From positions 248,001-312,000 of the forward strand of contig NZ_JAFFZE010000009.1 of assembly GCF_025165815.1 (NCBI RefSeq): a stretch of 64,000 bases of DNA, read 5' to 3'. This document shows, one piece after another, positions 2,528 to 21,157 of the stretch (the stretch's first letter is position 1; each line of letters opens with the position of its first letter). Under the pieces are notes generated by a model. That model was not told the origin of the DNA. It was given only the letters and a program-made list of their open reading frames with translations, and made no database searches. Origin of the DNA: Actinophytocola gossypii (lineage in GTDB: Bacteria > Actinomycetota > Actinomycetes > Mycobacteriales > Pseudonocardiaceae). Both the position numbers and the translations under genes were made by a program.

Positions 2528-3330
2528 TGCTGCACACCTTCCTCAATGAGTTCCAGGGACTCGTCCCCGGAGTACGCGTCGGTCCGGATGGTGTCAAACA
2601 CTACCGTTGTCATCTCCACCATTGCCGGGTCCTGCACGGTCTGGCCGTCCAGCACGGTGTCCAGGTATGCGACCGCCGGTTGTCTGGCCAGTTCCGCGAT
2701 GACGAAGGCACCAGCCAGCGCGGTGTGCGCACGGGCGGCGGAGATCAGCTGGATCGTGATGCGCGGCCGGCGAGCGAACTCGGCCAACTTCGCCAGTTGA
2801 GCCGCCATCACCCCGGGGCCGCCGATCTCGCGGCGCAGCACATGCTCGTCAATGACCGCCCACAGCCACGGCGGTTCCTCGGTGTCCAGCACACGTTGGC
2901 GGTTCAGCTTCGCCGCCACCCGTGCGGTCACCTCATCGCTGGTCAGGCCGGGATACGCCTCAACCAGGGTTCTCGCGTAGTCCTCGGTCTGCAACAGGCC
3001 GGGCACAAGCGTGTGCTCGAAGGTCTTGATCGTGCGGGCCTCCGCTTCGGCGGCCACGAACGGTCGGAAGCCCGGTGAGATCGGGGCGGCGCGAATCCTC
3101 GCCTCCAGGCGACACAGCATGCCCGCCGTACCGAAGACCTTGTCCAGCAGCGCCGCCTGTTCACGGGTTGGCATCCGGTAACCGGACTCGATGTTCTTCA
3201 CCGTGGAGTGGCTGAACCCGATCTGTCTGGCCAGCTCGTCCTGGGTGAGGCGGCGCGTCTCCCGCTGCGCCCGCACCTCCTCGGCGATCAGCTGCCGCTC
3301 CAGATCGCCGCCGGATCCCCCGAGAGTCAT
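2503..3330 (-). CDS. XRE-family regulator with DUF5753 domain
   Basis: A 275-residue cytosolic protein. The N-terminal helix-turn-helix (about residues 17-72: RRLTQDELARQIGFSHSTVKNIESG) is an XRE/Cro-type DNA-binding domain. The rest is DUF5753, recognisable from TFEHTLVPGLLQTEDYAR, RQRVL, WAVIDEHVLRREIGG and the late YLDTVLDGQTVQDP. Streptomycete relatives act in development and antibiotic regulation, but no specific target is visible here. The ATG at 3330 has a strong GGAGGGGG ribosome site 4 nt away. It is paired with the overlapping DUF397 gene. Confidence 0.92.
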   Translation of the reverse strand: MTLGGSGGDLERQLIAEEVRAQRETRRLTQDELARQIGFSHSTVKNIESGYRMPTREQAALLDKVFGTAGMLCRLEARIRAAPISPGFRPFVAAEAEARTIKTFEHTLVPGLLQTEDYARTLVEAYPGLTSDEVTARVAAKLNRQRVLDTEEPPWLWAVIDEHVLRREIGGPGVMAAQLAKLAEFARRPRITIQLISAARAHTALAGAFVIAELARQPAVAYLDTVLDGQTVQDPAMVEMTTVVFDTIRTDAYSGDESLELIEEGVQQWKQRTAS

Positions 3331-3351
3331 GCGCCCCCTCCTCGCACCTTA

Positions 3352-3379
3352 TGTGACGTACAGCGCATGATAAGTCACA
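3352..3379 (-). promoter_or_regulatory. Putative XRE promoter with inverted repeat
   Basis: On the minus strand TATCAT (3367-3372) matches a -10 box about 37 nt before the XRE start. It lies inside an inverted repeat TGTGAC (3352-3357) / GTCACA (3374-3379), a plausible autoregulatory operator. No convincing -35 is visible. Confidence 0.4.
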
Positions 3380-3419
3380 CAGTGCGATAGGCCGCAGAGA
3401 CCCGCACAGAACGAGAGCG

Positions 3420-3446
3420 GGCCAGGACCGCGACGCGGCCCTGGCC
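3420..3446 (-). terminator. Hairpin after the serine protease gene
   Basis: GGCCAGG (3420-3426) and CCTGGCC (3440-3446) form a 7-bp stem, extended after one mismatch by four more G-C pairs around a 3-nt loop. It begins 7 nt past the protease stop. There is no T-tract, as is common for actinobacterial hairpins. Confidence 0.6.
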
Positions 3447-3453
3447 GGTCGGC

Positions 3454-4902
3454 TCACGGGTTGGTCATGTCCAGGGTGTACTGGCCGGAGCCGCTGTAGG
3501 CGTGCACCCGGTACCGGTAGTAGCCGGCCGTTCCGTTGTACGACAGGGTCTCGTCGGCGTTCGGGCTGGTGGAGCTGGCCACGTTCGCCCAGTTGTAGCC
3601 GTTCCACTTCTGCAGGTACAGGTCGAAGTCGGCGCCGGACGGGCCGTCCAGGCAGCCGGTGTGCGTGCCGCTGCCGGTCGACCGGTAGTAGCTGCCGTTC
3701 GGCTGGTAGCCGCTCTGGCCGGAGCCGAGGTTGCCGCTGCCGCTCAGGTCCGCCTCCTCCTGGCAGTCGCCGCCGCCCGGGGGTGGTTCGTCGCCGTTGG
3801 TGATCAGGGTGAGGTTGTAGGCCTGCAGGATCTCGTTCACCGGCTGGAAGTACGTGGTGCCGCCGGACCTGCAGTTCCCGGAGCCGCCGGAGGTCACGCC
3901 CTGCGCCTGGTTGCCGGCGAGCAGCGAGCCGCCGGAGTCACCCGGCTCGGCGCACACGGTGGTGCGGATCAGGCCGGACACCGTGCCCTGCGGGTAGGTC
4001 ACCGACGTGTTGCGGGCCTGGATGGTGCCGCAGTGCCAGCCGGTCGTCGAGCCGGACCGGCACACCGTGGAGCCGACCGCGGCGTCCTGCGAACCGCCGA
4101 CGGCGACCCGGCCACCCGCGTAGTTGTTCACCGCGCCGACCATCGTGTTGCCGGAGCCCACCCGCACCCAGGCGTAGTCGTTGCCGGGGAAGCTCGACCC
4201 GGCGAACTGGCCGTTCGGCTGGCTGGTGCTGGCTCCGGTCCGTCCACAGTGGCCGGCGGTGACGAAGCCGCCGTTCACCGAGAACCCGACCGAGCAGCGC
4301 GATCCGGAGCCGATGTAGTACGGGTTGCCGCCGACGACGTCGATCAGCGGCCGGGGCGACTCGGTCGAGCGCACCACCCGCACCGCGTCCCGGTCGACCC
4401 CGCTGGCCAGCACGAACCGCTCCCCGGCGGCGACCGAGCGGGTGTTCACCACGACCGTGTTGGTCGTGACGTCGACGTACCAGCTGGCCACCCCCGCCGG
4501 CACGGCATCGCGGTTCGCGTCCAGGGTGTCCTGCACGGCGTCCAGTTCGGCGACCGAGCGTTCGACGAGGCGTGGCTCGGCGCCTCCCTCCCGCACCGAG
4601 CCGGCCGCCTCGGCATTGGTGACGCCGACGACCAGCGTGTCGCCCTTCAGCCAGCCGCCGGCGTAGTCGTCGCCGAGCTGCTTGCGCAGCTCGAGGTTGG
4701 TGGTGCTCGCCTGTTTCTCGGCGGCGAGCCGGCTCCGCGCCTGGTCCTCGGTCAGCCCGAGATGGCGCTGGACGGCGGCCAGCATGCCGTCCCCGCCGGC
4801 GCGGTCGGGCTCCGGCGCACCGGCGGCGGGCACCGCGAGCGCGGTGACCATGGCCGTGCCGAGCGCGGCGACCAGTATTCCCAAGTGGACTCTTCGATCC
4901 AT
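3454..4902 (-). CDS. Secreted alpha-lytic/streptogrisin-type serine protease with PPC domain
   Basis: A 482-residue exported zymogen. A signal peptide (about residues 1-29, RRVHLGILVAALGTAM... to VPAAGA) is followed by an alpha-lytic-type pro-domain (about 30-186) that normally folds the enzyme and is then removed. The S1-family catalytic domain begins near IDVVGGNPYY and has the full triad: His218 in TAGHC, Asp242 in GNDYAWV and Ser323 in EPGDSGGS. A GDEPPPGGGD linker leads to a C-terminal PPC-like beta-domain (about 385-482) ending FDLYLQKWNGYNW and RYRVHAYSGSGQYTL, probably for substrate or wall binding. The ATG at 4902 is preferred because AAGGGAGA lies just before it and the signal peptide starts there. 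It probably degrades external protein for nutrition. Confidence 0.93.
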   Translation of the reverse strand: MDRRVHLGILVAALGTAMVTALAVPAAGAPEPDRAGGDGMLAAVQRHLGLTEDQARSRLAAEKQASTTNLELRKQLGDDYAGGWLKGDTLVVGVTNAEAAGSVREGGAEPRLVERSVAELDAVQDTLDANRDAVPAGVASWYVDVTTNTVVVNTRSVAAGERFVLASGVDRDAVRVVRSTESPRPLIDVVGGNPYYIGSGSRCSVGFSVNGGFVTAGHCGRTGASTSQPNGQFAGSSFPGNDYAWVRVGSGNTMVGAVNNYAGGRVAVGGSQDAAVGSTVCRSGSTTGWHCGTIQARNTSVTYPQGTVSGLIRTTVCAEPGDSGGSLLAGNQAQGVTSGGSGNCRSGGTTYFQPVNEILQAYNLTLITNGDEPPPGGGDCQEEADLSGSGNLGSGQSGYQPNGSYYRSTGSGTHTGCLDGPSGADFDLYLQKWNGYNWANVASSTSPNADETLSYNGTAGYYRYRVHAYSGSGQYTLDMTNP

Positions 4903-5004
4903 GTCCGTGTCTCCCTTGACATCGGTGCAGGGCGGATCAGCAAGGGAAACGGTAGGGCGGAAGCAGGGCGGCGGGGACATATCAACTTGCCCATCACACC
5001 GGGT

Positions 5005-5973
5005 TTATGCCGGCGTCGGATGTGCTCCGAAGCGCGGGTGGGCCGCCAGCCAGCGGGCGTAGGGCGGGCTGTACCGCAGCGAGTCGGTGTAGGCGGCCAG
5101 GGCGTACTGGTGCACCTGGTCGGCGACCGCGTCGGCGGGTGCCTCCGGGTGCCAGCCCAGCAGGTGCCGCCACCGCAGCGGCGCGCCGGCGAGCGGCAGG
5201 GCCCGCATCCCGGACAACTCCCGGAACGTCGGCTGGCACAGCGCGACCGCCTGGCCGCTCTGCACGAGGTCGATGCACACGCGCAGGTCGGTCTCGTACA
5301 TGGGCTCCGGGCTGAACCCGGCCCGCCCGCAGGCCGCGACGAAGCACTCGGTGAAGCACCCGTCGCCCGGCGCCGCCGCCCACCGCGAACCGGCGAGGTC
5401 GGCGAGGGTCACCTCGTCCCCGCGTGCACTCGGGTGTTCCTCGGGCAGCAGCACGCCCACGACGTCGACGGCGATCAGCCGCCACTCGAGCCCGTGTTCG
5501 CTCGGCGGTGGCGCGTCCCCGCAGACCCCGACGATGGCGAAGTCGAGCCGGCCCACCGCGACCAGCTCGACGAGTTCCTGCGCCGACCAGGACGCCTGGG
5601 TGGTGATGCTGGTGTCCGGCTTGCTCTCCGACAGCCGCCGGACCAGTCCGCTGACCATCGAGTTGCACACCGAGCCGATGCGGTACCGCACGGTCGCCGC
5701 GCCGGTCCCGGACAGCCGCGCCGCCTCGTGCCGCAGGTCCTCGACCACCGGCAGCAGCACCCGCGCCCTGGCGAGTACCAGCTCACCGAGCGACGTCGGC
5801 CGGGAACCGCGCCGGTCCCGCTCGAACAGCGGACCGCCGAGCGCGCGCTCGATCCGGTTGAGCTGCGCCGTGAGCGCGGGCTGCGCCAGCCCGAGCCGCG
5901 CCGCCGCCTTGGTCACGCTGCCGCTCTCCGCGACCGCGCACACCACCCGGAGGTGCCGCAGCTCCAGCTCCAT
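5005..5973 (-). CDS. LysR-family transcriptional regulator
   Basis: A 322-residue LTTR. The N-terminal winged HTH is canonical (MELELRHLRVVCAVAESGSVTKAAARLGLAQPALTAQLNRIERALG), followed by a periplasmic-binding-like effector domain (about 90-300). The ATG at 5973 places the protein exactly at the family start; a longer frame upstream is not typical. It is divergent from the MpaB-like gene with about 100 bp between the starts, the standard LysR arrangement, so control of that gene is plausible but unproven. The effector is unknown. Confidence 0.9.
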   Translation of the reverse strand: MELELRHLRVVCAVAESGSVTKAAARLGLAQPALTAQLNRIERALGGPLFERDRRGSRPTSLGELVLARARVLLPVVEDLRHEAARLSGTGAATVRYRIGSVCNSMVSGLVRRLSESKPDTSITTQASWSAQELVELVAVGRLDFAIVGVCGDAPPPSEHGLEWRLIAVDVVGVLLPEEHPSARGDEVTLADLAGSRWAAAPGDGCFTECFVAACGRAGFSPEPMYETDLRVCIDLVQSGQAVALCQPTFRELSGMRALPLAGAPLRWRHLLGWHPEAPADAVADQVHQYALAAYTDSLRYSPPYARWLAAHPRFGAHPTPA

Positions 5974-6075
5974 ACCAGGAAACGCTAAGCCGCGCCGGAC
6001 CCGACGAAAAGCCCCAAATGCGCGCAACGTGTGATACACAGATTCAAGAATGTCTCATCGACTCGGGAGGTCGCG

Positions 6076-6933
6076 GTGACGGCGGACGCACTCGAACGGG
6101 TCGGCGTGGACCTCCCCGGTCCCGGCTCGCTGCACTGGCGGTGGGCCGGCGAGGTCCGCGGCTACCTGCTGCTGGTCAAGGCCGGTCTGCTGCAGCTCAT
6201 GCATCCCGGTCTCGGTGCTGGCGTCGAGCAGCACTCCGACTTCTTCAACGAGCCGTGGGAGCGCGTCCTGCGCTCGGTCCCCGAGATCCAGGGCGTCACC
6301 TTCGACTGGCCGGACGGCGCCCGCACCGCGCGGCGCATCCGGGAGTACCACAACGACATCAAGGGCGTGGACGGCCGGGGCGACCGCTACCACGCCCTCG
6401 ACCCCGAGGTTTTCTTCTGGGCGCACGCCACGATCTTCGACGCGCTGTACCAGATGATCGACCTCTTCGACCACCGGATGAGCGACGCGGAGTCCGAACA
6501 GCTCTACGCCGAATCGCGCCGGGTGTTCCGCGCGTACGGCGTCAGCGACCGGATCGTGCCGCCGGACTGGGCCGGCTTCCGCGCCTACTTCGACCGCATG
6601 TGCCGCGAGGAACTCGTGATCACCCCGGCCGCCCGGGGTCTGATCGAGTTCGCCAAGGAGCCGCCCGCCACGTTCCCGCTGGTGCCCGCCCCGCTCTACC
6701 GGGCACTGCGCAGGCCGACCGCCAAGCCGCTGTGGTGGATCTCCGTCGGCACGCTGCCCGACCCCGTACGCCGGCAGATCGGCGAGCGGTGGACCGACCG
6801 CGACGAGCGGCGACACCGGTGGTTCCGGCGCGCGGTCGCCACGTCCTGGCGCGTCGTGCCGCCGCGGTTCAGGTACACCGAACGCGCACGGCAGGGCTTC
6901 CGGCGGGCCGGGGTGGGACCATCGGGCAGGTGA
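6076..6933 (+). CDS. MpaB/DUF2236-family oxygenase-like protein
   Basis: A 285-residue protein of the DUF2236 (MpaB/latex-clearing-protein-like) family; characterised members bind haem b and cleave or oxidise hydrophobic substrates with oxygen. Visible family features are LLLVKAGLLQLMHPGLGAGV, the HSDFFNEPWERVLRS segment, RIREYHNDIKG, and ALDPEVFFWAHATIFDA with its conserved histidine, a likely haem ligand region. The GTG at 6076 sits 5 nt after GGGAGG. Its stop overlaps the GTG of the downstream TetR gene (GTGA), so the two are co-translated and the TetR probably controls this gene. The substrate cannot be predicted. Confidence 0.85.
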   Translation: MTADALERVGVDLPGPGSLHWRWAGEVRGYLLLVKAGLLQLMHPGLGAGVEQHSDFFNEPWERVLRSVPEIQGVTFDWPDGARTARRIREYHNDIKGVDGRGDRYHALDPEVFFWAHATIFDALYQMIDLFDHRMSDAESEQLYAESRRVFRAYGVSDRIVPPDWAGFRAYFDRMCREELVITPAARGLIEFAKEPPATFPLVPAPLYRALRRPTAKPLWWISVGTLPDPVRRQIGERWTDRDERRHRWFRRAVATSWRVVPPRFRYTERARQGFRRAGVGPSGR

Positions 6934-7532
6934 ACCTCCTCGACCTGGTGCTGAACGGGCCGGAGCCGGACCCGGTCGGCGAGACCGTGCTGGACGCCGC
7001 CCTCGAGGAGTTCCTGGCCTACGGCCTGCGCCGGACCACGGTGGACGTCGTCGCCCGCCGGGCCGGAATCTCCCGGGCGACCTTGTACCGGCGCTTCGAC
7101 GGCAAGGACGCCCTCGTGCAGGCGGTGCTCATCCGCGAGTGCCGGCGGTTCTTCGGCAGCATCGCCGCCGCCGTCGCCGACCAGGACACCGCCGAGGAAC
7201 GCCTGGTCGAGGGGTTCGTCGTCGGCGTCCGCTACGCCAGCACCGATCCGCTGCTCAACCGCCTGCTCGCCTCCGACCCCGAGGCGCTGCTGCCGTACCT
7301 GACCACCGACGGGCACCTGGTGGTCGCCGCCGCCCGCGACTTCCTGGTCCGGCAGTCACCCGAGTCCGACCCGATCGAGGGCCGTACGCCCGAAGGAGTG
7401 GCGGAGGTGTTCGTGCGCCTCGCGATCTCGTTCACCCTGATGCCGCGCGGCGCCATCCCGCTGGACACCGACGACTCCGTGCGCGCGTTCGCCCGCGGCT
7501 ACCTCGCCCCGTTGATGCGGTCCGGTACCTGA
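6930..7532 (+). CDS. TetR-family regulator of the MpaB-like gene
   Basis: A 200-residue TetR protein. The N-terminal HTH reads EFLAYGLRRTTVDVVARRAGISRATLYRRFDGKDALVQAV (about residues 28-66); the C-terminal half is a variable ligand-binding domain. The GTG start overlaps the preceding stop by 4 bp (GTGA), so it is translationally coupled to the oxygenase-like gene and most likely represses that operon. Its 3' end overlaps the convergent TetR gene by 34 bp. Confidence 0.92.
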   Translation: MNLLDLVLNGPEPDPVGETVLDAALEEFLAYGLRRTTVDVVARRAGISRATLYRRFDGKDALVQAVLIRECRRFFGSIAAAVADQDTAEERLVEGFVVGVRYASTDPLLNRLLASDPEALLPYLTTDGHLVVAAARDFLVRQSPESDPIEGRTPEGVAEVFVRLAISFTLMPRGAIPLDTDDSVRAFARGYLAPLMRSGT

Positions 7533-8949: not shown

Positions 8950-11550
8950 GTGACGGCGCCCGTGCCCGATGGCTTCGTGCCCACCGAGTCGGCCGTCCGC
9001 CGGGCGCTGCGCCGGGCGCGCGACGGGGTGACCCTCGACCGCACCGAGGCCGAGACGCTCCTGCACGCACGCGGTGAACAACTCGACGACCTGCTCGCCG
9101 CCGCGTCCCGGGTGCGGGACGCCGGCCTCGCCGCGGCCGGCCGCGAGGGCGTCATCACCTACTCGCGCAGTGTGTTCGTGCCGCTCACCAAGCTCTGCCG
9201 GGACCGCTGCCACTACTGCACCTTCGCCACCGTGCCCGGCCGGGTGCCCTCGGCGTTCCTCAGCGAGGACGAGATCCTGGACATCGTCCGGCGCGGCGCC
9301 GAACTGGGGTGCAAGGAAGTCCTGTTCACCCTCGGCGACCGGCCGGAGGACCGCTGGACCGCGGCGCGCGAGTGGCTGGAGGAGGCCGGCTACCCGGACA
9401 CGCTCTCCTACGTGCGCGCGATGTCGATCAAGGTCCTGGAGGAGACCGGGGTGCTGCCGCACCTCAACCCCGGCGTGCTGAGCTGGACCGACTTCCAGCG
9501 GCTCAAGCCGGTGTCGGCGTCGATGGGCATGATGCTGGAGACGACCGCCACCCGGCTGTGGTCGGAGAAGGGCGGCCCGCACTACGGCTCGCCGGACAAG
9601 GAGCCCGCGGTCCGGCTGCGCGTGCTGGAGGACGCCGGCCGCAGCTCGGTGCCGTTCACCACGGGCATCCTCATCGGCATCGGCGAGACGCTGGCCGAAC
9701 GGGTCGACTCGCTGTTCGCCATCCGCGGCGTCGCGCGCCAGTACGGCGGCATCCAGGAAGTCATCGTGCAGAACTTCCGCGCCAAGCCGGACACCGCCAT
9801 GGCCGGCATGGCCGACGCGACTCTCGAGGAGCTGGCGGCGACCGTCGCGGTCGCCCGCCTCGTACTCGGCCCAAGGATGCGCATCCAGGCCCCGCCGAAC
9901 CTGATCGGCGGCGAGTTCGAGCTGCTGCTGCGCGCCGGCATCGACGACTGGGGCGGTGTCTCGCCGCTCACGCCGGATCACGTCAACCCGGAACGGCCGT
10001 GGCCGCAGGAGGAGACGCTCACCCGGCACACGTCCGCGGCCGGGTTCACGCTCGCCGAGCGGCTGCCGATCTACCCGGAGTACGTGTTGCGGGGCGAGCC
10101 GTGGCTGGACCCGAGGGTCGCCGGCCACGTCGCCGCGCTGGCCGATCCGGCGATCGGCCTGGCCGCGACGGGGTCCGCTCCGGTCGGCCGCCCGTGGCAG
10201 GAACCCGAGGTCGCGCTGGTGTCGTCGGGCCGTACCGACCTGCACGCGTCGATCGACACCGAGGGCAGGACCGCGGACCGCCGCGACGACTTCGACTCGG
10301 TGTACGGGGACTGGGAGTCGTTGCGGGCACAGGTTTCCGCGCCGCCGACCGCCGCCGCGTCCGGGCCGTCCGAAACGCTGCGCCGGGACTTCTCCGCCGC
10401 GCTGCTGCGTGCCGAGTCTGACCCGAGTGGACTGTCCGATGAGGACGCCATGCTGTTGTTGTCCGCCAACGAGGGCGCGGAGATCACCGCGCTGGCCGCG
10501 CTGGCCGACGACGTCCGCCGGGACACGGTCGGTGACGAGGTGACCTATGTGGTCACCCGGAACATCAACTTCACCAACGTCTGCTACACCGGGTGCCGGT
10601 TCTGCGCGTTCGCGCAGCGACGCACCGACAGCGACGCCTACACGCTGTCCCTGGAGCAGGTGGGGCAGCGGGCGACGCAGGCCTGGGAGGTCGGCGCGAC
10701 CGAGGTGTGCATGCAGGGCGGCATCCACCCGGACCTGCCGGGGACGGCGTACTTCGACATCGCCGCCGAGGTCAAGCGGCGGGCGCCGGGCCTGCACGTG
10801 CACGCGTTCTCGCCGATGGAGGTGGTGAACGGCGCGTCCAGGACGAACCTGTCCGTGCGCGACTGGCTGACCGCGGCCCGCGAGTCCGGAGTGGACTCCC
10901 TACCCGGCACGGCGGCCGAGATCCTCGACGACGACGTGCGCTGGATCCTGACCAAGGGCAAGCTGCCCACGGCGTCCTGGATCGAGGTCGTGACGACCGC
11001 GCACGAACTCGGCATCCCGACCACGTCGACGATGATGTACGGGCACGTCGACAACCCGTCACACTGGGTCGCCCACATCAAGCTCATCCGGGACCTACAG
11101 GCACGAACCGGTGGTTTCACGGAGTTCGTCCTGCTGCCGTTCGTGCACACGAACGCTCCGCTGTACCTGGCCGGTATCGCCAGGCCCGGCCCGACGCACC
11201 TGGAGAACCGCGCCGTGCACGCCCTGGCGCGGCTGCTGCTGCACGGCCGGATCCAGAACATCCAGACGAGCTGGGTCAAGCTGGGCACTCCGGGCGTGGT
11301 CGACGTACTGCGTGGCGGCGTCAACGACCTGGGCGGCACCCTGATGGAGGAGACCATCAGCCGCATGGCCGGTTCCGAGAACGGCAGCTACAAGACGATC
11401 GCCGACCTGGAGGCCCTCGCGCACGCGGCCGGCCGCCCGGCCCGCCAGCGCACCACCACCTACGGCGAGGTCCCGGCGGAACGCCTCACCACGGCCCGCG
11501 AACACGACGGCGTGTGGCGCCCGAACCTGCTCCCACTGGTCAGCGGCTGA
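8950..11550 (+). CDS. fbiC: Bifunctional FO synthase FbiC (CofG-CofH fusion)
   Basis: An 866-residue fusion of two radical-SAM enzymes that together build FO (7,8-didemethyl-8-hydroxy-5-deazariboflavin), the chromophore of coenzyme F420, from a ribityl-pyrimidine and tyrosine. The CofG half carries [10 protein letters not shown] (C83, C87, C90) and the CofH half [10 protein letters not shown] (C545, C549, C552); each CxxxCxxC set binds a 4Fe-4S cluster. Length and order match actinobacterial FbiC. The GTG at 8950 is preferred over the ATG at 8944: AGGAGG (8937-8942) is only 1 nt from that ATG but 7 nt from the GTG. TAGCGT (8905-8910) could be its -10. An F420-type oxidoreductase in the same window (56797-57765) is a plausible user. 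Confidence 0.97.
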
Positions 11551-12445
11551 GGGCACCCTCCAGAACACGATCGAGTGCGGCCCGGCCCGCGGGTCCCCAG
11601 TGCGGCTTGCCGCCGGGAAGACCCCGGTCTCCGTTCTGCCCCATGAGCATCAGGAAGAGGCTCTTCATCGCGGCCAGCCCGCGGGCGCGCCGGATCGTCG
11701 ACTCGTCCGCCCGCGCGTACGTGTCGAAGAACCGTCCGGCGGCGCCCGGGGGAAGCAGCACCCAGGCGGCGGCGAGGTCCCACGCAGGATCGCCGGCGAA
11801 CAGGTCACCGAAGTCGACGACGCCCGAGAGCGTTCCGGCCGAGACGACGACGTTCGCGGGATGGAGGTCGCCGTGCACCCACACCGGCGGGCCCACCCAC
11901 GCGTCGGCCGCGACGGCGTCGGTCCAGACGGCCCGGACATCGGCGGCGATGTCGTCGGGGTTGACGGCCCGGAGGAAGTTCTCGAAGCCGTCCGTGCAGT
12001 CCCTGGGATGAGCACCACGGTCCGTACTGCCCGGCGCGTCAGCGGGCGCCGCCACATGGAGCGCCCGGAGGAAACCCGCCAGCGTGTCGGCCGCGTGGGT
12101 GCTGCGGGTGATCGAGCCGTGGTCGAGCGGTTCGCCGGCAACCCAGGTCATCACGGTCCAGTGCTTGGGGAAGCGCTCGGACGGTTCGCCGAACCGCACC
12201 GGGGTCGGTACCGGGAGGGGCAGGCGTGGGGCCAGCACGGGTAGCCATCGCCGCTCCTTGAACTGGAGCGCCGGGGTGGGGTCCATGCGCTGCATCCGCA
12301 CGGCCAACTTGTCCCCGAGACGCCACATGTGGTTGCCCCAGCCGCCCGCCACCTCACGGATGGGCAGCCCCGCAAGGTCTGCATGCTGGTCCCGCAGCAG
12401 GTCGCGAACCAGGTCCGCGGTCACCTCGATCGCGGTGTCGGCCAT
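11540..12445 (-). CDS. Aminoglycoside phosphotransferase (APH) family kinase
   Basis: A 301-residue APH/choline-kinase-fold protein. Motifs are the Brenner box [10 protein letters not shown] (H191, catalytic D193, N198) and the metal-binding DFGD (D211). The N-terminal ATP lobe ([20 protein letters not shown]) has a plausible lysine at position 46. The substrate is unknown; family members phosphorylate aminoglycosides, macrolides, homoserine or other hydroxyls, and most chromosomal copies are not resistance genes. The start is supported by a leaderless -10 (TACTGT, 8 nt upstream). The gene overlaps the convergent fbiC by 11 bp. Confidence 0.88.
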
Positions 12446-12996: not shown

Positions 12997-14082
12997 ATGG
13001 CACAAGAGGTTCGGGGCGTCATCGCCAGGGCGAAGGGCGCGCCGGTCGAGATCGAGACGATCGTGGTTCCCGACCCCGGGCCCGGCGAGGCAGTGGTGCG
13101 CGTCCAGGCCTGTGGGGTCTGCCACACCGACCTGCACTACCGCGAGGGCGGGATCAACGACGAATTTCCCTTCCTCCTCGGGCACGAGGCCGCGGGCGTC
13201 GTGGAGTCGGTCGGCGACGGGGTCACCGATCTCGAGCCGGGGGACTACGTCATCCTCAACTGGCGCGCGGTCTGCGGCACCTGCCGCGCCTGCCTGCGCG
13301 GCCGCCCCTGGTACTGCTTCTCGACCTTCAACGCGTCGCAGCCGATGACCCTCACCGACGGCACCGCGCTGACCCCGGCGCTCGGGATCGGGGCGTTCGC
13401 CGAGAAGACGCTCGTCCACAGCGGACAGTGCACGAAGGTCGACCCGGACGCGGCGCCGGAGGCCGCCGGGCTGCTCGGCTGCGGGATCATGGCCGGCATC
13501 GGTGCCGCGGTGAACACCGGGAACGTCACCCGCGGTGACAGCGTCGCGGTCATCGGGTGCGGCGGTGTCGGGTGCGCCTCGATCGCCGGCGCGGCGATCG
13601 CCGGGGCCACGAAGATCATCGCCGTCGACCTGGACGAGCGGAAGCTGGAGTGGGCGAAGAAGTTCGGCGCCACGCACACGGTGAACGCGAAGGACGTCGA
13701 CGTCGTCGAGGCGGTCAAGGAGCTGACCGGCGGGTTCGGCGCGGACGTCGTGATCGAGGCGGTCGGGCGGCCGGAGACCTGGAAGCAGGCCTTCTACGCC
13801 CGCGACCTCGCCGGCACCGTCGTGCTGGTCGGCGTGCCGACCCCGGACATGCGGCTCGAGATGCCGATGATCGACTTCTTCTCGCACGGCGGCTCGCTCA
13901 AGTCCAGCTGGTACGGCGACTGCCTGCCCTCCCGCGACTTCCCCTACCTCATCGACCTGTACCAGCAGGGCAGGCTCGACCTCGACGCCTTCGTCACCGA
14001 GAAGATCACCCCGACCCAGGTCGAGGACGCCTTCACCAAGATGCACCACGGCGACGTGCTGCGCTCGGTGGTGGTCTTCTGA
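12997..14082 (+). CDS. mscR: S-(hydroxymethyl)mycothiol dehydrogenase (formaldehyde detoxification)
   Basis: A 361-residue zinc-dependent class III alcohol dehydrogenase. It oxidises the mycothiol-formaldehyde adduct with NAD and, in mycobacteria, also reduces S-nitrosomycothiol. Zinc ligands are visible: catalytic C42 (ACGVCHTD) and H63/E64 (GHEAAG), plus the structural four-cysteine lobe C93/C96/C99/C107. The Rossmann GxGGVG sits in [37 protein letters not shown] near the C-terminus is characteristic of the mycothiol enzymes. The ATG at 12997 follows AACGAGG. Its stop overlaps the ATG of the MBL hydrolase (TGATG), a conserved actinobacterial pair. Confidence 0.93.
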
Positions 14083-14711
14083 TGGCGGTCCGGGTGGAGA
14101 AGGTCGTCACCTCCGGAACCTTCAACCTCGACGGCGGCAGCTGGGAGGTCGACAACAACGTCTGGCTCCTCGGCGACGACGAACAGGTCCTGGTGATCGA
14201 CGCCGCGCACGACGCCGACGCCATCGCCGCCGCGGTGGGGGAGCGTGACGTCCTCGCGATCGCCTGCACGCACGGGCACGACGACCACGTCAACGCCGCC
14301 CCGGCGCTGGCCGAGCTGGTCGACGCCCCCGTGCTGCTGCACCCGGCCGACGACGTGCTGTGGCGGCTCGCGCACGCCGAGGCCCGCCCGACCGGTGAAC
14401 TCGCGGACAACGAGGTGCTGAACGTCGCCGGCACGCGGGTCCACGTGCTGCACACCCCGGGCCACGCGCCCGGCGCCGTGTGCCTGCACGTGCCCGACCT
14501 GGGTGTCGTGTTCACCGGGGACACGCTGTTCAACGGCGGTCCCGGCGCCACCGGTCGCTCGTACTCGGACTTCCCGACGATCGTCGACTCCATCCGGAAC
14601 CGGCTGCTCACCCTGCCGCCGGACACGGTCGTGCACACCGGCCACGGCGACGACACCAGAATCGGCGATGAGCAACCTCACCTCGACGAATGGATAGCCC
14701 GCGGACACTAG
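14082..14711 (+). CDS. MBL-fold hydrolase paired with mscR
   Basis: A 209-residue metallo-beta-lactamase-fold hydrolase with intact HxHxDH (H64, H66, D68, H69 in THGHDDHVNA), HTPGHAPG, TGDTLF and HTGHGDDT, so a binuclear metal site is expected. Its start codon overlaps the mscR stop, so the two are translated together. The obvious inference is hydrolysis of S-formylmycothiol, the MscR product, which would release formate and mycothiol in the manner of glyoxalase II; this has not been shown for this protein. A short G/C hairpin follows the gene. Confidence 0.88.
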   Translation: MAVRVEKVVTSGTFNLDGGSWEVDNNVWLLGDDEQVLVIDAAHDADAIAAAVGERDVLAIACTHGHDDHVNAAPALAELVDAPVLLHPADDVLWRLAHAEARPTGELADNEVLNVAGTRVHVLHTPGHAPGAVCLHVPDLGVVFTGDTLFNGGPGATGRSYSDFPTIVDSIRNRLLTLPPDTVVHTGHGDDTRIGDEQPHLDEWIARGH

Positions 14712-14774: not shown

Positions 14775-16025
14775 ATGGCTGGGTTGTCCCCGATTCTCAA
14801 GCAGGCCACGCCGGTGCTCGCCGAACGCGGCGAGGGCGTGTACCTCTACGGCGAGGACGGGCGCCGGTATCTCGACTTCACCGCCGGGATCGGCGTGACC
14901 AGCACCGGGCACTGCCATCCTCGGGTCGTCGAGGCCGTGCGTGAGCAGGCCGGGAAGCTCATCCACGGCCAGTACACGACCGTGATGCACCGGCCGCTGC
15001 TGACGCTCTCGGAGCGGCTCGGCGAGGTGCTGCCGTCCGGGCTGGACGCGTTGTTCTACGTGAACTCCGGCAGCGAGGCGGTCGAGGCCGCCCTGCGGCT
15101 GTCCCGGCACGCCACCGGCCGGCCGAACGTCCTGGTGTTCCACGGGTCGTTCCACGGGCGGACCGTCGGCGCGGCGTCGATGACCACGTCGGCCACGAAG
15201 TTCCGCGCCGGGTTCGCGCCGCTGATGGGCGGGGTCGCGGTGGCGCCGTTCCCCACGGCCTACCGGTACGGCTGGAGCGAGCAGGAGGCGACCCGGTTCG
15301 CGCTGCGCGAGCTGGACTACGTGCTGGCGACGATGTCCTCCCCGGCCGAGACGGCGGCGTTCTTCGTGGAGCCGGTGCTCGGCGAGGGCGGCTACGTACC
15401 GGCGAACACGGAGTTCATGCAGGGCCTGCGCGAGCGCGCGGACCGGCACGGGATCCTGCTGGTGGTCGACGAGGTGCAGACCGGCTTCGGCCGGACCGGC
15501 CGGTTCTGGGGCCACGACCACTTCGACGTCCGCCCGGACGTCGTGATCACGGCGAAGGGCCTGGCCAGTGGGTTCCCGCTGTCGGCCATCGCCGCGTCGA
15601 AGGACCTGATGGCGAAGGCGTGGCCGGGTTCGCAGGGCGGCACCTACGGCGGCAACGCGGTCGCCTGCGCGGCCGCGCTGGCGACCCTGGACGTGGTCCA
15701 GTCCGAGGGCCTGGTGGACAACGCGGCCGCGATGGGCACCCGGCTGCGCGAGGGCTTGGCCAAGGTCGCCGCCGACGTCCCGGCGATCGGCGACGTGCGC
15801 GGGCTGGGCCTGATGCTGGGCAACGAGTTCGTCGACTCCGACGGCGCCCCGGACGCGGCCGCGGCGACGCGGGTGCAGCAGGCGGCGTCGGCGGCGGGCC
15901 TGCTCCTGCTGACCTGCGGCGCCGCCGGCAACGTGGTGCGGATGATCCCGCCGCTGGTCGTGAACGCCGAGCAGATCGACGAGGGCCTGGGGCTGTGGCG
16001 GGAGGCCGTGACCTCAGCGGTCTGA
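14775..16025 (+). CDS. Class III aminotransferase (GabT-like)
   Basis: A 416-residue PLP-dependent omega-aminotransferase. It has SGSEAVEAALRL, FHGSFHGRTVGA, LVVDEVQTGFGRTG (D232 pairs with the pyridine N) and the Schiff-base lysine K261 in ITAKGLASGFPLSA. The closest functional group is 4-aminobutyrate or acetylornithine-type transaminases, but the amino donor cannot be fixed from sequence. The ATG at 14775 lies 8 nt after GAGGAGGG (14759-14766); an in-frame GTG at 14769 is too close. Transcription is probably gated by the palindrome just upstream. The 3' end overlaps the convergent protease/NTPase gene by 12 bp. Confidence 0.9.
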   Translation: MAGLSPILKQATPVLAERGEGVYLYGEDGRRYLDFTAGIGVTSTGHCHPRVVEAVREQAGKLIHGQYTTVMHRPLLTLSERLGEVLPSGLDALFYVNSGSEAVEAALRLSRHATGRPNVLVFHGSFHGRTVGAASMTTSATKFRAGFAPLMGGVAVAPFPTAYRYGWSEQEATRFALRELDYVLATMSSPAETAAFFVEPVLGEGGYVPANTEFMQGLRERADRHGILLVVDEVQTGFGRTGRFWGHDHFDVRPDVVITAKGLASGFPLSAIAASKDLMAKAWPGSQGGTYGGNAVACAAALATLDVVQSEGLVDNAAAMGTRLREGLAKVAADVPAIGDVRGLGLMLGNEFVDSDGAPDAAAATRVQQAASAAGLLLLTCGAAGNVVRMIPPLVVNAEQIDEGLGLWREAVTSAV

Positions 16026-19000
16026 GAGCTGGTCCCGCACCCACAGCGACTGTTCCAGCTCGGCCTGGTGCACCGCAGGCCGAACCCGTGCCAACTCCTG
16101 CCGAATGGCGACGGCTTCGTTGATCGCCTCGAGCGCCTCGCCGTGCTGCCCGTGGTCCGCGAGCAGCACGGCGAGGTTGTTCAGGCTCCCGGCAAGGTAG
16201 TGCAGGAACGCGTCCGGCCGCGCCCGCGCCAACTCGCGGTAGATCCCGACGGCTTCCCGCATCGCCGGCACGCCGTCCGCCGCGCCCACGACCAGGGCCC
16301 GGTTGTTCAGACTCTCGGCGAGGCCGGGCCGGAAGGCGTCGGGTTGGGCTCGTGCCAGTTCGCGCCGAATGGCGACGGCTTCGTTGATCGCGTCCAGCGC
16401 CTCCGTCAGCCGTCCCACGCTGACCAGCCAGGTGGCGAGGTTGTTCAGGGCCATGGCGAGCACGGGGCGGAACGCGTCCGGCTGACCGGATGCCGACTCG
16501 CGGTAGATGCCGATGGCTTCGGTGACCGCGGCCAGCGCTTCCGCCGGTCGCCCCCGGTCTCCCAGCCGGTTGGCCAGGTTGGTGAGGCTGTCCGCGAGAT
16601 CGGTTCGGAAGGCGTCGGGCTCGGCCTGTGCCAGGTCGCGGCGGATGCCGACGGCTTCGGTGATCGTGTGCAGGGCTTCCTCCTGCCGTCCCAGCTCCAC
16701 CAGGCGCAGGGAAAGGTTGTTCAGGTTCTGGGCGAGGTGGGCGCGGAAGATGCCGGGACGAGCGCGCGTCAGCTCGCGGTAGGTGTCGGTGGACTCCGTG
16801 ATGGCGGCCAGCGCCTGTTCGCGGCGACCCACGTCGGCCAACCGACCGGAAAGGACGGCCAGGCTCAGTGCGAGACCGGGTCGGTAGGTGTCCGGCTGGG
16901 CTCGCGTCAGCTCGCGGTAGATGTCGGTGGCCTCGGTGATCTCGGCGAGAGCCCGTTCGTGCTGACCCACGTCACCCAGCCGGTTGGCGAAGTTGACCAG
17001 TCTCAGCGCGAGAGCGGGACGGAAGGTGTCCGGCCGCTCCCGTGCCAGATCGCGCTGGATGGCGACGGCCTCCGCGATCGCCGCGGTCGCCTCCTCCCGC
17101 TGCCCCAGGGCTCCCAGGCGTTCGGCGAGGTGGTGCAGGCTCAGCGCGAGGCTGGGGTGGAAGGTGTCCGGTCGCTCCTGTGCCAGGTCGCGCTGGATGG
17201 CGACGGCTTCGACAACGGGCGCCAGCGCCTCCGCACGTCGTCCCGATTCCGCCAGGCTGTTGGCGAGCGAGGTGAGGGCCGACGAAAGGTGGGGGCGGTA
17301 GGCGTCCGGCAGGGAGCGGGCCAGCTCGCGGTAGATGTCGGTGGCTTCGGTGATCGCGCGCAGCGCGTCCTTCCGTTGTCCCAGCTCGCCCAGCCGTTCG
17401 GCGCGGTTCTTCAGGCTCAGCGCGAGGTAGGGGCGGAAGGCGTCAGGCCGCAGCTGCACCGCGTGACGGTAGATGTCGGTGGCCTCGGTGATCGCGGCCA
17501 ACGCCTGTTCTCGCCGCCCGACGTGCGTGAAGGCGTCGGCGAGGTTGTGGATGCTCAGGGCCAGGTCGGGGAGGTGGGCGTCGGGGTGGGCGCCTGCCAG
17601 CTCCCGTCGGATCGCGACGGCTTCGCTGATCGCCGCCAGCGCGTCCTCCCACCGTCCCGCCGCCACCAGATAGGTGGAGCGGTTGTGGACGCTCCTGGCG
17701 AGGTCGGCGAGGTGAGCGTCCGATCCGGTCCGCGCCAGGTCACGCCGAAGGGCGACGGCTTCGGTGATCGCCGCCAGCGCCTCCTCCCACCGCCCCAGCG
17801 CCCCCACCCGCACGGCGAAGTCGTTCAGGCTGCCGGCGAGGTCGGGCCCGGCGAGGCGGCGGTGCTCGACGACCAGACGTCGGGTGAGGCGCGCGGCCAC
17901 CTCGGCCAGGGCATGGCTGTACGGGGGTAGGTGCTCGTTCAGCCGGGCCAGGTCGGCGACCTCGGTGTCCGGGTCGTCGATGACGCGTTGCAGGCCGGCC
18001 AACAGAGGACCGGGCGCCTCCACCCGGGTCGCGACCTCGATGGCGGCGACGGCCAGCCCGCCGGCAGACAGTGCGGACAGCCCGTCGTCGAGGGAGCCGG
18101 CGAACGCGCGGTGCGCGGCGGCGCGGGCGTACACCGTGAGCAGCTGTGTGGCCTGGGTGTGGGTGGCGCCGGGGACCAGCGCGGGGACCAGATCGGGGTT
18201 CCGCTGGACCTGGCGGCCGACGAACCGTTCCGCCAACCGATCCGGTTGTAACGCGCCCCACGGCGGGTACAGGCCCGCGATCCACTCGCGGACCGCGGCG
18301 CGACGGTCCCGGGTCTGGTCCGCCAGCCGGGGCACCCGCGCCAGCAGGGCGTCGGCCTCCTCGCGGGTCTCGGCGCCGAGCAGGACGGCCGCGGCCAGGG
18401 CGTCGGTCAGCGCCTCCATGCTGAGCGCGGACAGCACCCCCTGCGCCGCCCTCGTCCAGTACCGCCGCTCGTGGCGCAGCACCCGGTCCTCCACGGCGAA
18501 GTCGCGGCCGGTCAGCGGGTGCGCCGCGTCGAGCAGGTCGGCGAGCGCGGTCATGTGCAGGGTCAGCGCGGTCTGGTCGTCCAGCACCGGATCGGGCAGG
18601 TTCGCGGCCAGCTCTGCCCACGGGTGTTCGGCCAGGTCCGGGACGTGGGGCAGGGCGGCGGCGAACGCGTCGACGGCCGCGCGGTACGCCTGCCGGCGGC
18701 CGTTCGGCTCTGGTTCCAGCTCGCCGAGGGCGTGCTCGATGGTGCCGTCGAGCAGCGCTTCCACCGTGGCGTCCTCGGACGTCAGCGCCGTCCACCACGA
18801 ACCGGTGGTCCTGGCCAGCATCAGCACCTTGACCGGGGTGGCGCCGCCGTGGCGGGCCAGGGCGTGCAGTACCCGGACCACCTGCTCGGTGTGCGTCTCG
18901 GCGTAGTCGACCACGACCAGCGTCGGCACGGCCGCGTCGGCCAGGGCGTCCACCTCGGCGGCGTGCTGGCCGAGCCACAGGACCGCCCAGCCCTCGTCGG

Positions 19001-19844
19001 TGAGGGCCTGCGCGCAGTGCACCGCGAGACGTGTCTTGCCCTGGCCGCCCGGTCCGTGCAGCAGCCACGCGCCGAACCCCGGCCGGTCCGCCCAGGCTCG
19101 CAGCCGGGCCATGACCTCGGCGCGCCCGCGGAACGGCACCACCTGCCGGGACGCCACCAGCAGGGCCGCCGGTGACGGGACGCCGCCGGGGACGTGGGGC
19201 TCGGCCAGGTCCTGCCACTCGATCGGCGCCAGCGTCATCCGCCGCCCGGTGTGCTCGGCCAGCACCTCGCGGAACCGCCGGTCGTGGTGCAGCACGTAGA
19301 CCGGAACCGCCTCCAGCGCCGCGTGCCCGCGCCGCGCCGGGTCGATCGTGACCACGCCGGCCAGCAGGTCGCCGCAGAACACCGGGGCGCCGGAGAGTCC
19401 GGCCCACGGCGACGTGCCTTCCGGCGGGAGCCCGGTCAGGTTCAGCACGTAGCGGTCGCCCACGTACCGGTCACCCAGGTTGATCGTCCCGCTGGCGTGC
19501 GCGGTGTCCGCGGGCTGTCCCTCCCGGCGCATGAAGTCCGGGTAACCCCAGGTCTCGCACGGGATGCCCGGGCGGTGGGTCACCGTGCGGCCCCAGCGCA
19601 CCCCCGACCCCGTCGGCGGCCGCCAGCGCGGGTCCTCGACCAGCACCAGCGCGGCGTCGTCCCGGCCGCCGGGCGTGCCGCGCCAGACCACCGTGGCCCG
19701 GTACCGGTCGGCGCCGCCCAGTGGTCGTACGTGGGTCTCGCCGCCTTCGGCACCGACGACGTGGGCCGACGTCAGGACCAGGCACCGGTCGAGGACGTAG
19801 CCGGACCCGGAGCCGTGGACCCGCACCACCCGGCGACCGTCCAC
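16014..19844 (-). CDS. Trypsin-like protease / P-loop NTPase / TPR protein (predicted conflict-system core)
   Basis: A 1276-residue three-part protein. Residues about 1-200 are a trypsin-like domain with the complete triad H28 (TSAHVV), D63 (DDAALV) and S151 (GLSGAPVF), but no signal peptide, so it should act in the cytosol. Residues about 235-430 hold a STAND-like P-loop ATPase: Walker A GPGGQGKT (264-271), Walker B TLVVVDYAET (D313) and a sensor-like LMLART. A helical stretch leads to 13 TPR units (684-1276), mostly exactly 46 residues. The GTG start follows a GAGG site that overlaps the end of the Trypco2-like gene 8 bp upstream, so the two are coupled. This layout matches NTP-dependent conflict systems in which TPRs sense a trigger, the NTPase switches and the protease fires. 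The trigger and substrate are unknown. Confidence 0.88.
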   Translation of the reverse strand: MDGRRVVRVHGSGSGYVLDRCLVLTSAHVVGAEGGETHVRPLGGADRYRATVVWRGTPGGRDDAALVLVEDPRWRPPTGSGVRWGRTVTHRPGIPCETWGYPDFMRREGQPADTAHASGTINLGDRYVGDRYVLNLTGLPPEGTSPWAGLSGAPVFCGDLLAGVVTIDPARRGHAALEAVPVYVLHHDRRFREVLAEHTGRRMTLAPIEWQDLAEPHVPGGVPSPAALLVASRQVVPFRGRAEVMARLRAWADRPGFGAWLLHGPGGQGKTRLAVHCAQALTDEGWAVLWLGQHAAEVDALADAAVPTLVVVDYAETHTEQVVRVLHALARHGGATPVKVLMLARTTGSWWTALTSEDATVEALLDGTIEHALGELEPEPNGRRQAYRAAVDAFAAALPHVPDLAEHPWAELAANLPDPVLDDQTALTLHMTALADLLDAAHPLTGRDFAVEDRVLRHERRYWTRAAQGVLSALSMEALTDALAAAVLLGAETREEADALLARVPRLADQTRDRRAAVREWIAGLYPPWGALQPDRLAERFVGRQVQRNPDLVPALVPGATHTQATQLLTVYARAAAHRAFAGSLDDGLSALSAGGLAVAAIEVATRVEAPGPLLAGLQRVIDDPDTEVADLARLNEHLPPYSHALAEVAARLTRRLVVEHRRLAGPDLAGSLNDFAVRVGALGRWEEALAAITEAVALRRDLARTGSDAHLADLARSVHNRSTYLVAAGRWEDALAAISEAVAIRRELAGAHPDAHLPDLALSIHNLADAFTHVGRREQALAAITEATDIYRHAVQLRPDAFRPYLALSLKNRAERLGELGQRKDALRAITEATDIYRELARSLPDAYRPHLSSALTSLANSLAESGRRAEALAPVVEAVAIQRDLAQERPDTFHPSLALSLHHLAERLGALGQREEATAAIAEAVAIQRDLARERPDTFRPALALRLVNFANRLGDVGQHERALAEITEATDIYRELTRAQPDTYRPGLALSLAVLSGRLADVGRREQALAAITESTDTYRELTRARPGIFRAHLAQNLNNLSLRLVELGRQEEALHTITEAVGIRRDLAQAEPDAFRTDLADSLTNLANRLGDRGRPAEALAAVTEAIGIYRESASGQPDAFRPVLAMALNNLATWLVSVGRLTEALDAINEAVAIRRELARAQPDAFRPGLAESLNNRALVVGAADGVPAMREAVGIYRELARARPDAFLHYLAGSLNNLAVLLADHGQHGEALEAINEAVAIRQELARVRPAVHQAELEQSLWVRDQLSDR
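16017..17795 (-). repeat. Thirteen tandem TPR units, 138-bp period
   Basis: Eleven consecutive units of exactly 46 residues (138 bp), then one of 42 and a final one of 45, each reading roughly GRxEEALAAITEAVxIRRELAxxxPDAFRPxLAxSLNNLAxxLxxx. Two sub-types alternate: EAVAIRRELA and EATDIYRELT. The units are similar but not identical. The constant length and DNA similarity favour unequal crossing-over, so the copy number may vary between strains. Confidence 0.9.
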
Positions 19845-19852
19845 AGCGGACC

Positions 19853-20179
19853 TCAGCGCCCGATGTGCCCGGACAGGTCGCCCGAATCCTCGCCGTCCGG
19901 GTCGGCGGAGACCAGCAGGTCGCCGCCACCCGCGCGCCGCGGCGTCAGCGTGACCTTCACCCGGTGCGTCCTTGCCCGGGCCGCGCCCGCCTCGACGTCA
20001 CCGGAGACCACCCAGGCCTTGAAGCCGGCCTTCGCCTTGGTGTCCGCCCTGAGCTCGAGGGCGAACTCCAGCTCCACCGGCCCGACCACGAACTCGATGT
20101 CAGCTCCGGCGGCCCGGGCGGCGGCCGTCAGCAGCTCGTCCCGGACCGCCGACACCGCGTCCGCCAGCTCGATCTCCAT
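19853..20179 (-). CDS. Trypco2-like small protein (partner of the trypsin/NTPase/TPR protein)
   Basis: A 108-residue protein (116 if the GTG at 20203 is used) matching, by recall, the trypsin-co-occurring domain 2 family: IELADAVSAVRDELLTAA, the core DIEFVVGPVELEFALELRAD, KAWVVSGDVEAG and THRVKVTLTPRR. Such domains are found next to cytosolic trypsin-like conflict proteins and are suspected substrates, sensors or effectors of the protease. It sits 8 bp before the NTPase gene, whose ribosome site lies over its stop. The ATG at 20179 matches the family N-terminus. TAGGGT (20213-20218), overlapping the stop of the upstream SRPBCC gene, could be its own -10, giving this two-gene unit an independent promoter. 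Confidence 0.82.
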   Translation of the reverse strand: MEIELADAVSAVRDELLTAAARAAGADIEFVVGPVELEFALELRADTKAKAGFKAWVVSGDVEAGAARARTHRVKVTLTPRRAGGGDLLVSADPDGEDSGDLSGHIGR

Positions 20180-20215
20180 GTCCACCCCAGCAGTAGCCGC
20201 CACTGCCGGACAACC

Positions 20216-21157
20216 CTAGTCGACCCTCCGGTAGTGCTCGGTCAGTTCGGCCACCCGGTCCGCCGGCCAGCCGCAGCGGATCTCGCCCTGGGTGGCGGCG
20301 AAGAACAGCTCCAGCTGCACGTGCCACGCGGCCAGCGCCTCGGCCCGCAGGTGCGCCAGCCGGGCGGGCACGGTCTGGGTCAACTCCACCCGCACGCCCA
20401 GCTCCTCGTCGGTGGCGAACCGCCAGGTGACGGTGCCGGCGGGCTCGTTGTCGTGCAGCCACTCGTAGGTCAGCTCGTCCGGAGCATCCGTGTGCAGCAG
20501 GCGGCCGGCGGGGACGTGGTCGTTCGTCGCCCGTACGGGTGGCTTGTCGCTGAGCTGGGTGTCCTCGGTGAGCAGGGACCAGACGTCGGCGAGTGGTTTC
20601 CACACCAGGTCGCGGACGAAGTGCAGCTCGGAGCCGTCCTGCGTCTCGCGGACGGTGCCCTCGGCCAGGCCGAACTCCTCGATGTAGGCCTCGGTACGGG
20701 ACAGCGTGTCGTCGGGCGGGGTCGCCGGTACGCCGTCGAGGCGGGCCGCCAGGAACGCCAGGCAGGTGTCCCAGCCGGTGGCGGTCCGGCCGGCGCCCAG
20801 CAGGCCCCGCCCGCCGCCGCCGATCGTCTGGGTGAAGACCAGCAGGCAGCCGTCACCCGCGGGGATCAGCTCGAAACGCAGGACGTCGAGGTTCCAGCGG
20901 AACATGTAGACCTTCGGCGGGTCGACCTCCAGCACCTCGCCGTCCCACGTCCCGTCGACCACGGCCTCGCCGGGGAACGTGAACCGCATCGGGGCGCCGG
21001 GTCGCGCCTCGGCCTCGACCTCGGCGGGGAACCAGTGCGCCAGCTCCGCCGGGTCGCTGATCGCGCGCCACACCTTCGCGGGGGAGTGGCGGAGGCGGCG
21101 TTCGAAACGCAGTACCGGCCGGCCGTCGATGGTCCGCAGGGTCGCGCGCTCAGTCAT
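20216..21157 (-). CDS. Two-domain SRPBCC (AHSA1-like) protein
   Basis: A 313-residue protein with two tandem SRPBCC/AHSA1 domains. The first (about 10-140) shows RHSPAKVWRAISDPAELAHWFPAEVE and WDTCLAFLAARLDG; the second (about 170-310) shows RDLVWKPLADVWSLLT and AWHVQLELFFAA. These helix-grip folds bind hydrophobic ligands in a cavity; no enzyme residues are predictable. The start overlaps the end of the ArsR gene by 8 bp, a very common actinobacterial ArsR-SRPBCC pair in which the regulator controls its partner. Confidence 0.88.
   Translation of the reverse strand: MTERATLRTIDGRPVLRFERRLRHSPAKVWRAISDPAELAHWFPAEVEAEARPGAPMRFTFPGEAVVDGTWDGEVLEVDPPKVYMFRWNLDVLRFELIPAGDGCLLVFTQTIGGGGRGLLGAGRTATGWDTCLAFLAARLDGVPATPPDDTLSRTEAYIEEFGLAEGTVRETQDGSELHFVRDLVWKPLADVWSLLTEDTQLSDKPPVRATNDHVPAGRLLHTDAPDELTYEWLHDNEPAGTVTWRFATDEELGVRVELTQTVPARLAHLRAEALAAWHVQLELFFAATQGEIRCGWPADRVAELTEHYRRVD

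Follow-up and report, generated by a model that had tools for sequence, protein, structure and literature searches.

The name Trypco2 dates from 2020 and was given to a protein encoded next to trypsins, whose pairing with it was predicted for the VMAP ternary conflict systems (Kaur et al. 2020, PMC7159879). Related machinery has been tested elsewhere. LypABC of Caulobacter, like the CARD-NLR systems, combines a trypsin-like peptidase, a STAND/NLR-type ATPase and repeats resembling tetratricopeptide repeats (TPRs); its peptidase and ATPase domains are both required for lysis, and a LypA S262A variant fails (PMC13236601). The fused trypsin-like proteases of HamMAB and AVAST act on a partner with a gene of its own, which they cleave, or are inferred to cleave, behind conserved isoleucines; such a protease became toxic when dimerized (PMC12799240). 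Here we describe a two-gene locus of Actinophytocola gossypii, located in a 64,000-nucleotide stretch of contig NZ_JAFFZE010000009.1 (positions 248,001 to 312,000; hereafter the window), in which a Trypco2 gene directly precedes a gene for a large protein with protease, STAND and TPR parts. Our tentative reading is that this pair forms a conflict module, probably anti-phage and suicidal, in which an NLR-like STAND switch controls the protease and Trypco2 is the dedicated partner of that protease.

The locus resembles the VMAP ternary systems in its predicted conflict role and in the association of Trypco2 with trypsin. The first-pass annotation of this DNA had pointed to such a layout, and it is indeed published for those systems (PMC7159879), but no MoxR, vWA or VMAP domain was found in the genes adjacent to the pair nor, at E ≤ 1e-8, in ten further open reading frames (ORFs) of the window. 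Instead, switch and sensor reside within the protease chain as its STAND and TPR parts, and the locus is thus a variant rather than a VMAP system itself. The CARD-NLR systems share the trypsin-like peptidase, the STAND/NLR-type ATPase and the TPR-like repeats, but they divide these parts among three proteins and include a CARD-like domain and a peptidase-endonuclease, with no Trypco2 in the main text of the report (PMC13236601), whereas the parts found here form one chain. AVAST and protease-Hachiman also join a trypsin-like protease, at the N-terminus, to a defence enzyme and have a separate co-occurring partner, typically encoded upstream; that partner is a pro-nuclease of the metallo-beta-lactamase (MBL) type that is cut after a conserved isoleucine (PMC12799240). 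Here the gene upstream of the protease fusion, in the position of the HamMAB/AVAST pro-nuclease, encodes not an MBL-type protein but the 108-residue Trypco2, in which no nuclease domain was found. In the open-licence PubMed Central literature, passages on Trypco2 yielded no experimental account of it and no description of a stand-alone pair of Trypco2 with a trypsin-STAND-TPR protein; supplementary tables may list such loci. Since the Trypco2-trypsin link is published for VMAP systems and the stand-alone pair was not found described, we regard the latter as a variant of the VMAP-type pairing.

Domain architecture of the gene pair

Both genes lie on the reverse strand, with the ORFs and coordinates that the first-pass annotation had given them. 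The Trypco2 gene (19853-20179) starts with ATG and encodes 108 amino acids. Its suggested identity was borne out by Pfam, which assigns residues 3-80 (20173-19940) to PF19631 over all 78 model positions (1-78) with 99.1 bits against a cut-off of 24.2 (E 1.8e-28). Pfam found no further domain in it, and a structure search returned no match to a solved structure or fold. The large gene (16014-19844) starts with GTG and encodes 1276 amino acids. The spacing between the Trypco2 stop codon and this GTG is 8 nt, and a ribosome-site-like GAGG, read from the sequence at 19851-19854 on the reverse strand, overlaps the stop (TGA, 19855-19853) and sits 6 nt before the GTG, in agreement with the overlap noted earlier.

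The large protein has the protease-switch-repeat layout that had been proposed for it, and the layout is also seen among relatives. The protease domain (19374-19808, residues 13-157) scores 30.1 bits with Trypsin_2 against a curated cut-off of 27.6, the NTPase domain (18801-19157, residues 230-348) 45.1 bits with nSTAND_NTPase5 (PF25199) against 34, and the repeats (16017-17771) 112.4 bits with TPR_12 against 30.1. The protease is HtrA/V8-like in fold and carries the His-Asp-Ser triad in a chymotrypsin fold (H28, D63, S151) that marks trypsin- or HtrA-like serine peptidases. The STAND P-loop NTPase, with its Walker A (GPGGQGKT, K270) and Walker B (VVVDYAET, D313) motifs, lies between this N-terminal effector and the C-terminal repeats, as in NLR-like proteins. 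An alignment of 82 sequences placed the triad and K270 at the positions claimed. The triad histidine is conserved in 82, the serine in 81 and the aspartate in 76 in the exact column; in the remaining six the aspartate is one column off, in a DAALL-type motif. The Walker A lysine and the Walker B aspartate are each present in 82 of 82.

The long TPR array was confirmed, although a profile of the 46-residue unit, built from the large protein itself, counts 14 units where 13 had been claimed. Complete ortholog ORFs (n = 71) have between 0 and 15 units. Concerted evolution of the repeats was considered and set aside, as units are 0.50 alike within a protein versus 0.41 between proteins, a difference too slight to claim it. 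As regards a CARD-like N-terminal domain or an export signal, the large protein enters its protease domain at about residue 12; no export signal was seen by inspection, and Pfam found no DNA-binding domain.

Conservation of the pair and linkage of Trypco2 to the protease

Orthologs were collected by scanning a trypsin-STAND alignment of 14 sequences against genome contigs, one genome per species. The 80 loci analysed are the best 80 of 251 confirmed relatives, so that the set favours close relatives; they come from Streptomyces, Kitasatospora, Actinomadura, Nocardia, Nocardiopsis, Kutzneria, Actinoplanes and other actinobacteria. The expected conservation of the pair was found: Trypco2 is directly upstream on the same strand in 71 of the 80, its stop no more than 210 nt before the protease domain. 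It is directly downstream in two (L170 and L171, near 11283-11600), divergent in one (L219) and about 1.5 kb upstream in another (L215), and two pairs each occur in L213 and in a Streptomyces aurantiacus plasmid. There was no sign of a third conserved gene: when proteins of at least 110 amino acids in the fetched flanks were clustered by a crude ORF-based procedure, no neighbour family outside the pair exceeded 4 of the 80 loci.

Trypco2 itself was followed through the taxonomic family of the window, where it occurs in 71 of 390 genomes with 78 matches. The DNA around 77 loci outside the window and the window itself was surveyed. A same-strand trypsin ORF is directly beside Trypco2 in 52 of these 78 loci, downstream of it in 47 and upstream in five. 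Gene order is variable while adjacency is kept, with Trypco2 following the protease gene in L170, L171, L083, L085, L087, L093 and L094.

Nineteen trypsin partners from the family, picked for varied architecture, were scanned with Pfam. Trypsin_2 was detected at E ≤ 0.001 in 17 (below its cut-off in L104); of the other two, L092 matched only Trypsin and L119 gave no match. The NTPases include NPHP3_N/NACHT, NB-ARC and AAA_16 types, some of them below cut-off, and many partners carry TPR, HEAT or Sel1 repeats; L104, L112 and L116 have the protease only. These varied combinations suggest that the Trypco2-protease unit is constant and that switch and sensor are exchanged around it. Over 114 pairs, Trypco2 distances correlate with those of trypsin at r 0.868 and with those of the NTPase at r 0.828, and the partial correlations are 0.515 and 0.245, all values being without phylogenetic correction. 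As judged from these sequence distances, Trypco2 appears to track the protease more than the NTPase.

The C-terminal tail of Trypco2

In Trypco2 proteins of this subfamily, the Pfam domain is followed by a variable linker and then mostly by a GPGDVSG[HR]Ixx carboxyl end. The 72 tails compared come from 71 loci and the window. The pattern G[PT][GA]x5[IVL]xx-end is matched by 42 of them. The tail of the window (DSGDLSGHIGR, its last 11 residues, 19856-19888 on the reverse strand) is not among these and keeps the GDLSGHIGR half without GPG. Position -3 is I, V, L, F, Y or M in 63 of the 72, the window included. Among the 62 tails of similar length, 46 have G at -11, 41 P at -10, 46 G at -9, 36 D at -8, 50 R or H at -4 and 38 I at -3. 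All four bases occur at the third positions of the glycine and proline codons from -11 through -9, which argues that the constraint is on the protein and not on the overlapping ribosome site; the isoleucine codon is mostly ATC, as expected for G+C-rich coding. Trypco2 proteins encoded beside NPHP3_N-type proteins often end like ISGxExxxER instead. Passages on Trypco2 in the literature, those in PMC7159879 among them, contain no mention of such a tail, and the conserved tail of this subfamily is new here.

Structure models were obtained for Trypco2 alone and together with its partner. Alone, with a 68-row alignment, Trypco2 was modelled with a mean predicted local distance difference test (pLDDT) score of 75 as one helix and a sheet, its last two blocks scoring 58 and 50. 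For the joint model, Trypco2, linker, protease and STAND of L152 were treated as one artificial chain read through the stop (94 rows), which gave a pLDDT of 88 and a predicted template modelling score (pTM) of 0.84. Residues 101-110 of this chain, which comprise nine of the eleven tail residues and a glycine substituted for the stop, score 83, compared with 66 for the block before and 46 for the block after. The tail is therefore modelled more confidently beside the protease-STAND part than in Trypco2 by itself. A short ordered segment flanked by flexible ones is the pattern expected of a docked peptide, and we take this modelled order as a lead only.

These observations bear on an alternative in which Trypco2 is a substrate or pro-effector. 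A fired STAND switch would lead the protease to cut the tail, possibly after the isoleucine at -3, and the response would then be carried out by Trypco2 in its processed form or by the released protease. In HamMAB, conserved isoleucines of the partner nuclease mark the sites on whose C-terminal side the trypsin-like protease cleaves, and these isoleucines are also required in AVAST (PMC12799240). Trypco2 is the only recurrent neighbour seen among families of at least 110 residues, no other exceeding 4 of 80 loci, and a hydrophobic residue at -3 is the rule in its tails. The protease is HtrA/V8-like in fold, and the site of trypsin's basic specificity (residue 189) is Ser in 74 of the 82 aligned sequences and Asp in none. 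However, a cut after -3 would release just two residues, a poor gating event, and nine of the 72 tails lack a hydrophobic residue there. The modelled tail forms no strand and no bridge, unlike a canonical protease substrate, which counts against a canonical substrate pose. Trypco2 has no other Pfam domain and no solved-structure match, and beside other architectures it has other tails. On balance, we consider a substrate role unlikely, though it is the strongest of the alternatives.

Distribution and genomic setting

The pair is accessory, and relatives of it occur on plasmids. Only one of six genomes of the genus has Trypco2, the five congeners being without it. In three of these (G001, G002, G003), the aminotransferase and AHSA1 genes that flank the pair are adjacent, separated by 0.3-0.75 kb of other DNA and without the pair. 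The corresponding slot in the window spans 16011-20231: DNA likeness to the three congeners ends at 16009-16038 and restarts at 20231. At the thresholds used, no aminotransferase match was found in G004 and no AHSA1 match in G005. Relatives of the large protein are found on 91 plasmid records, and in 19 of these a single place covers 80% or more of the query; Trypco2 is present on 33 plasmid records. The NCBI-derived annotation of these plasmids mostly reads 'trypco2 family protein' and 'tetratricopeptide repeat protein', so that protease and switch are not named.

The aminotransferase-AHSA1 slots of the three congeners (L245, L246, L247) hold other short DNA that differs by eye, as in a small variable site. 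Foreign base composition was not supported as a mark of the cassette, since its G+C of 0.737 against 0.723 for the window is ordinary for a stretch of 4.2 kb (mean 0.724, standard deviation 0.014). No common exact 10-mer was found at the cassette ends and no tRNA in the window. The AHSA1-family gene is on the same strand with its stop 36 nt before the Trypco2 ATG, making transcription from that gene possible. The promoter that had been proposed for the small gene itself was not recovered: no sigma-70-like site was found in 19700-20500 with a simple consensus that covers actinobacterial promoters poorly.

This distribution also bears on an alternative without any part in conflict, in which the large protein would control development or metabolism in the manner of AfsR and act through regulated proteolysis. 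AfsR and other NOD-TPR proteins serve as regulators in actinobacteria, and those of Streptomyces share the NOD and TPR parts (PMC10936776). The neighbours scanned are metabolic or regulatory genes. However, AfsR-type proteins have a SARP transcription-activator domain (PMC10936776) where this protein has a protease, and the lack of a DNA-binding domain in the large protein speaks against such a function. Patchy occurrence in the genus, plasmid carriage, swapping of NTPases and repeats, and a TPR count between none and 15 are all unlike a housekeeping regulator, and we regard this explanation as improbable. An addiction-type module, in which Trypco2 would chiefly be an antitoxin-like inhibitor of a dangerous protease, would suit the small gene in first place, the tight spacing and the plasmid carriage, but it would leave the large STAND-TPR part superfluous and sits poorly with intact-triad relatives without a nearby Trypco2, so that it seems the least credible of all.

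The genes adjoining the pair encode an aminotransferase, an AHSA1 protein, an ArsR protein and an aldolase (Pfam). An MBL-fold protein at 13557-14711 was considered as an Avs1a/HamM-like partner and judged unrelated: it resembles a hydroxyacylglutathione hydrolase, below the curated cut-off, has no PADLOC match, and its DNA is at least partly present in congeners without the pair. Further away, an APH-family phosphotransferase is encoded at 11540-12445.

Proposed function of the module

We return to the proposal that the pair is an NLR-like protease module of the conflict type. The domains, the intact catalytic and Walker residues, the conserved pairing, the conserved tail and the accessory distribution are observed. 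From these we infer the following sequence. The TPR array would sense a trigger, whereupon the STAND domain would exchange nucleotide and the protein would assemble. Assembly may concentrate or unlock the N-terminal HtrA-like serine proteases, and their cleavage of cellular or partner proteins would bring the cell to a halt. Trypco2, made from the preceding gene, would touch the large protein, perhaps via its conserved C-terminal tail, and this contact would hold, license or aim the protease. Sensing by the TPRs, assembly through STAND and activation of the proteases by proximity most likely describe the working, as this reading suits both the layout and the tested relatives LypABC and HamMAB/AVAST. 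We favour an adaptor or a lock as the role of Trypco2, which may otherwise be a substrate or an inhibitor. A more specific version, in which Trypco2 gates the protease through a class-specific tail that is read by the protease-STAND chain and, on activation, cut or bound in a product-like manner at the conserved isoleucine, is rather doubtful.

Several observations weigh against this proposal. The accessory, mobile spread is as expected of the conflict locus suggested in the first-pass annotation, but neither protein matches a model in PADLOC-DB 2.0.0 (0 families, E ≤ 0.01), and no defence island was seen, the adjacent genes scanned being ordinary metabolic or regulatory ones. Trypco2 had no match in phage records, and the trypsin-STAND query found no relative in viral contigs. 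Five of the 80 orthologs (L176, L182, L198, L204, L229) have an intact triad and no Trypco2 within the fetched flank. Three family genomes (G006, G017, G018) have large-gene relatives and no Trypco2 match, and one large-gene copy in G064 (contig C1) has no Trypco2 on its contig. The existence of such relatives indicates that the partner is not absolutely required. In the family survey, 26 of the 78 Trypco2 loci fell outside the count of those adjoining a trypsin ORF. One of them (L101) resembles its relatives in that a trypsin ORF lies upstream at a distance of about 4.5 kb; the rest are 13 loci of one genus with its own Trypco2 type, four apparently double-domain ones and eight others, which include fragments and L078. 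Trypsin_2 reaches E ≤ 0.001 in only 32 of 62 rows of the large-protein alignment, compared with 60 of 62 for nSTAND_NTPase5, so that for many orthologs the assignment of a protease depends on how they align with the large protein encoded in the window. Finally, the first eight blocks of the Trypco2 domain score 76, 76, 60, 80, 80, 77, 56 and 81 in the joint model and 86, 87, 78, 88, 77, 75, 50 and 86 alone; the domain as modelled is on the whole less confident jointly than alone, in a comparison of two models that differ in ortholog and alignment.

Some of these loci have features of their own. The 13 from one genus (L120, L124, L125, L127, L128, L131, L132, L134, L135, L137-L140) encode an LGLDEVL...LRRDL-type Trypco2 with a long C-terminal extension and no trypsin match nearby; this type has possibly been domesticated. 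L141, L142, L143 and L144 encode proteins of about 165 residues (near 6752-7495) that resemble two Trypco2-like halves, again with no trypsin match nearby; the second half was recognized by eye only, and Pfam finds one in L141. In L078, a Trypco2 with the full tail GPGEVSGHVGR adjoins a WXG100/RHS-repeat polymorphic-toxin-like protein (1768-6816 and 6914-7234), with no trypsin match in the fetched DNA. Degenerate protease triads occur in L150 and L151 (3015-4115), from genomes without a Trypco2 match. A link between loss of Trypco2 and loss of catalysis was considered on account of the broken triads in L150 and in one of the three copies in L151, but the intact triads of L149, of the other two L151 copies and of the five orthologs lacking Trypco2 leave the link without a clear pattern. 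In the scan for orthologs, six viral stretches matched a pattern, and none of them is a relative.

Implications

The compact module, with its intact protease, STAND switch and short conserved partner tail, makes the question of Trypco2 function tractable. If gating through the tail is true, proteolytic innate immunity would have one more branch next to the CARD-NLR systems and the isoleucine-gated HamM/Avs1a nucleases, one that works without a nuclease and in which Trypco2 and trypsin are swapped together as a cassette among many sensor types. If the locus serves in defence, actinobacterial immunity would gain an NLR-like protease branch that has neither a nuclease nor a gasdermin beside it.

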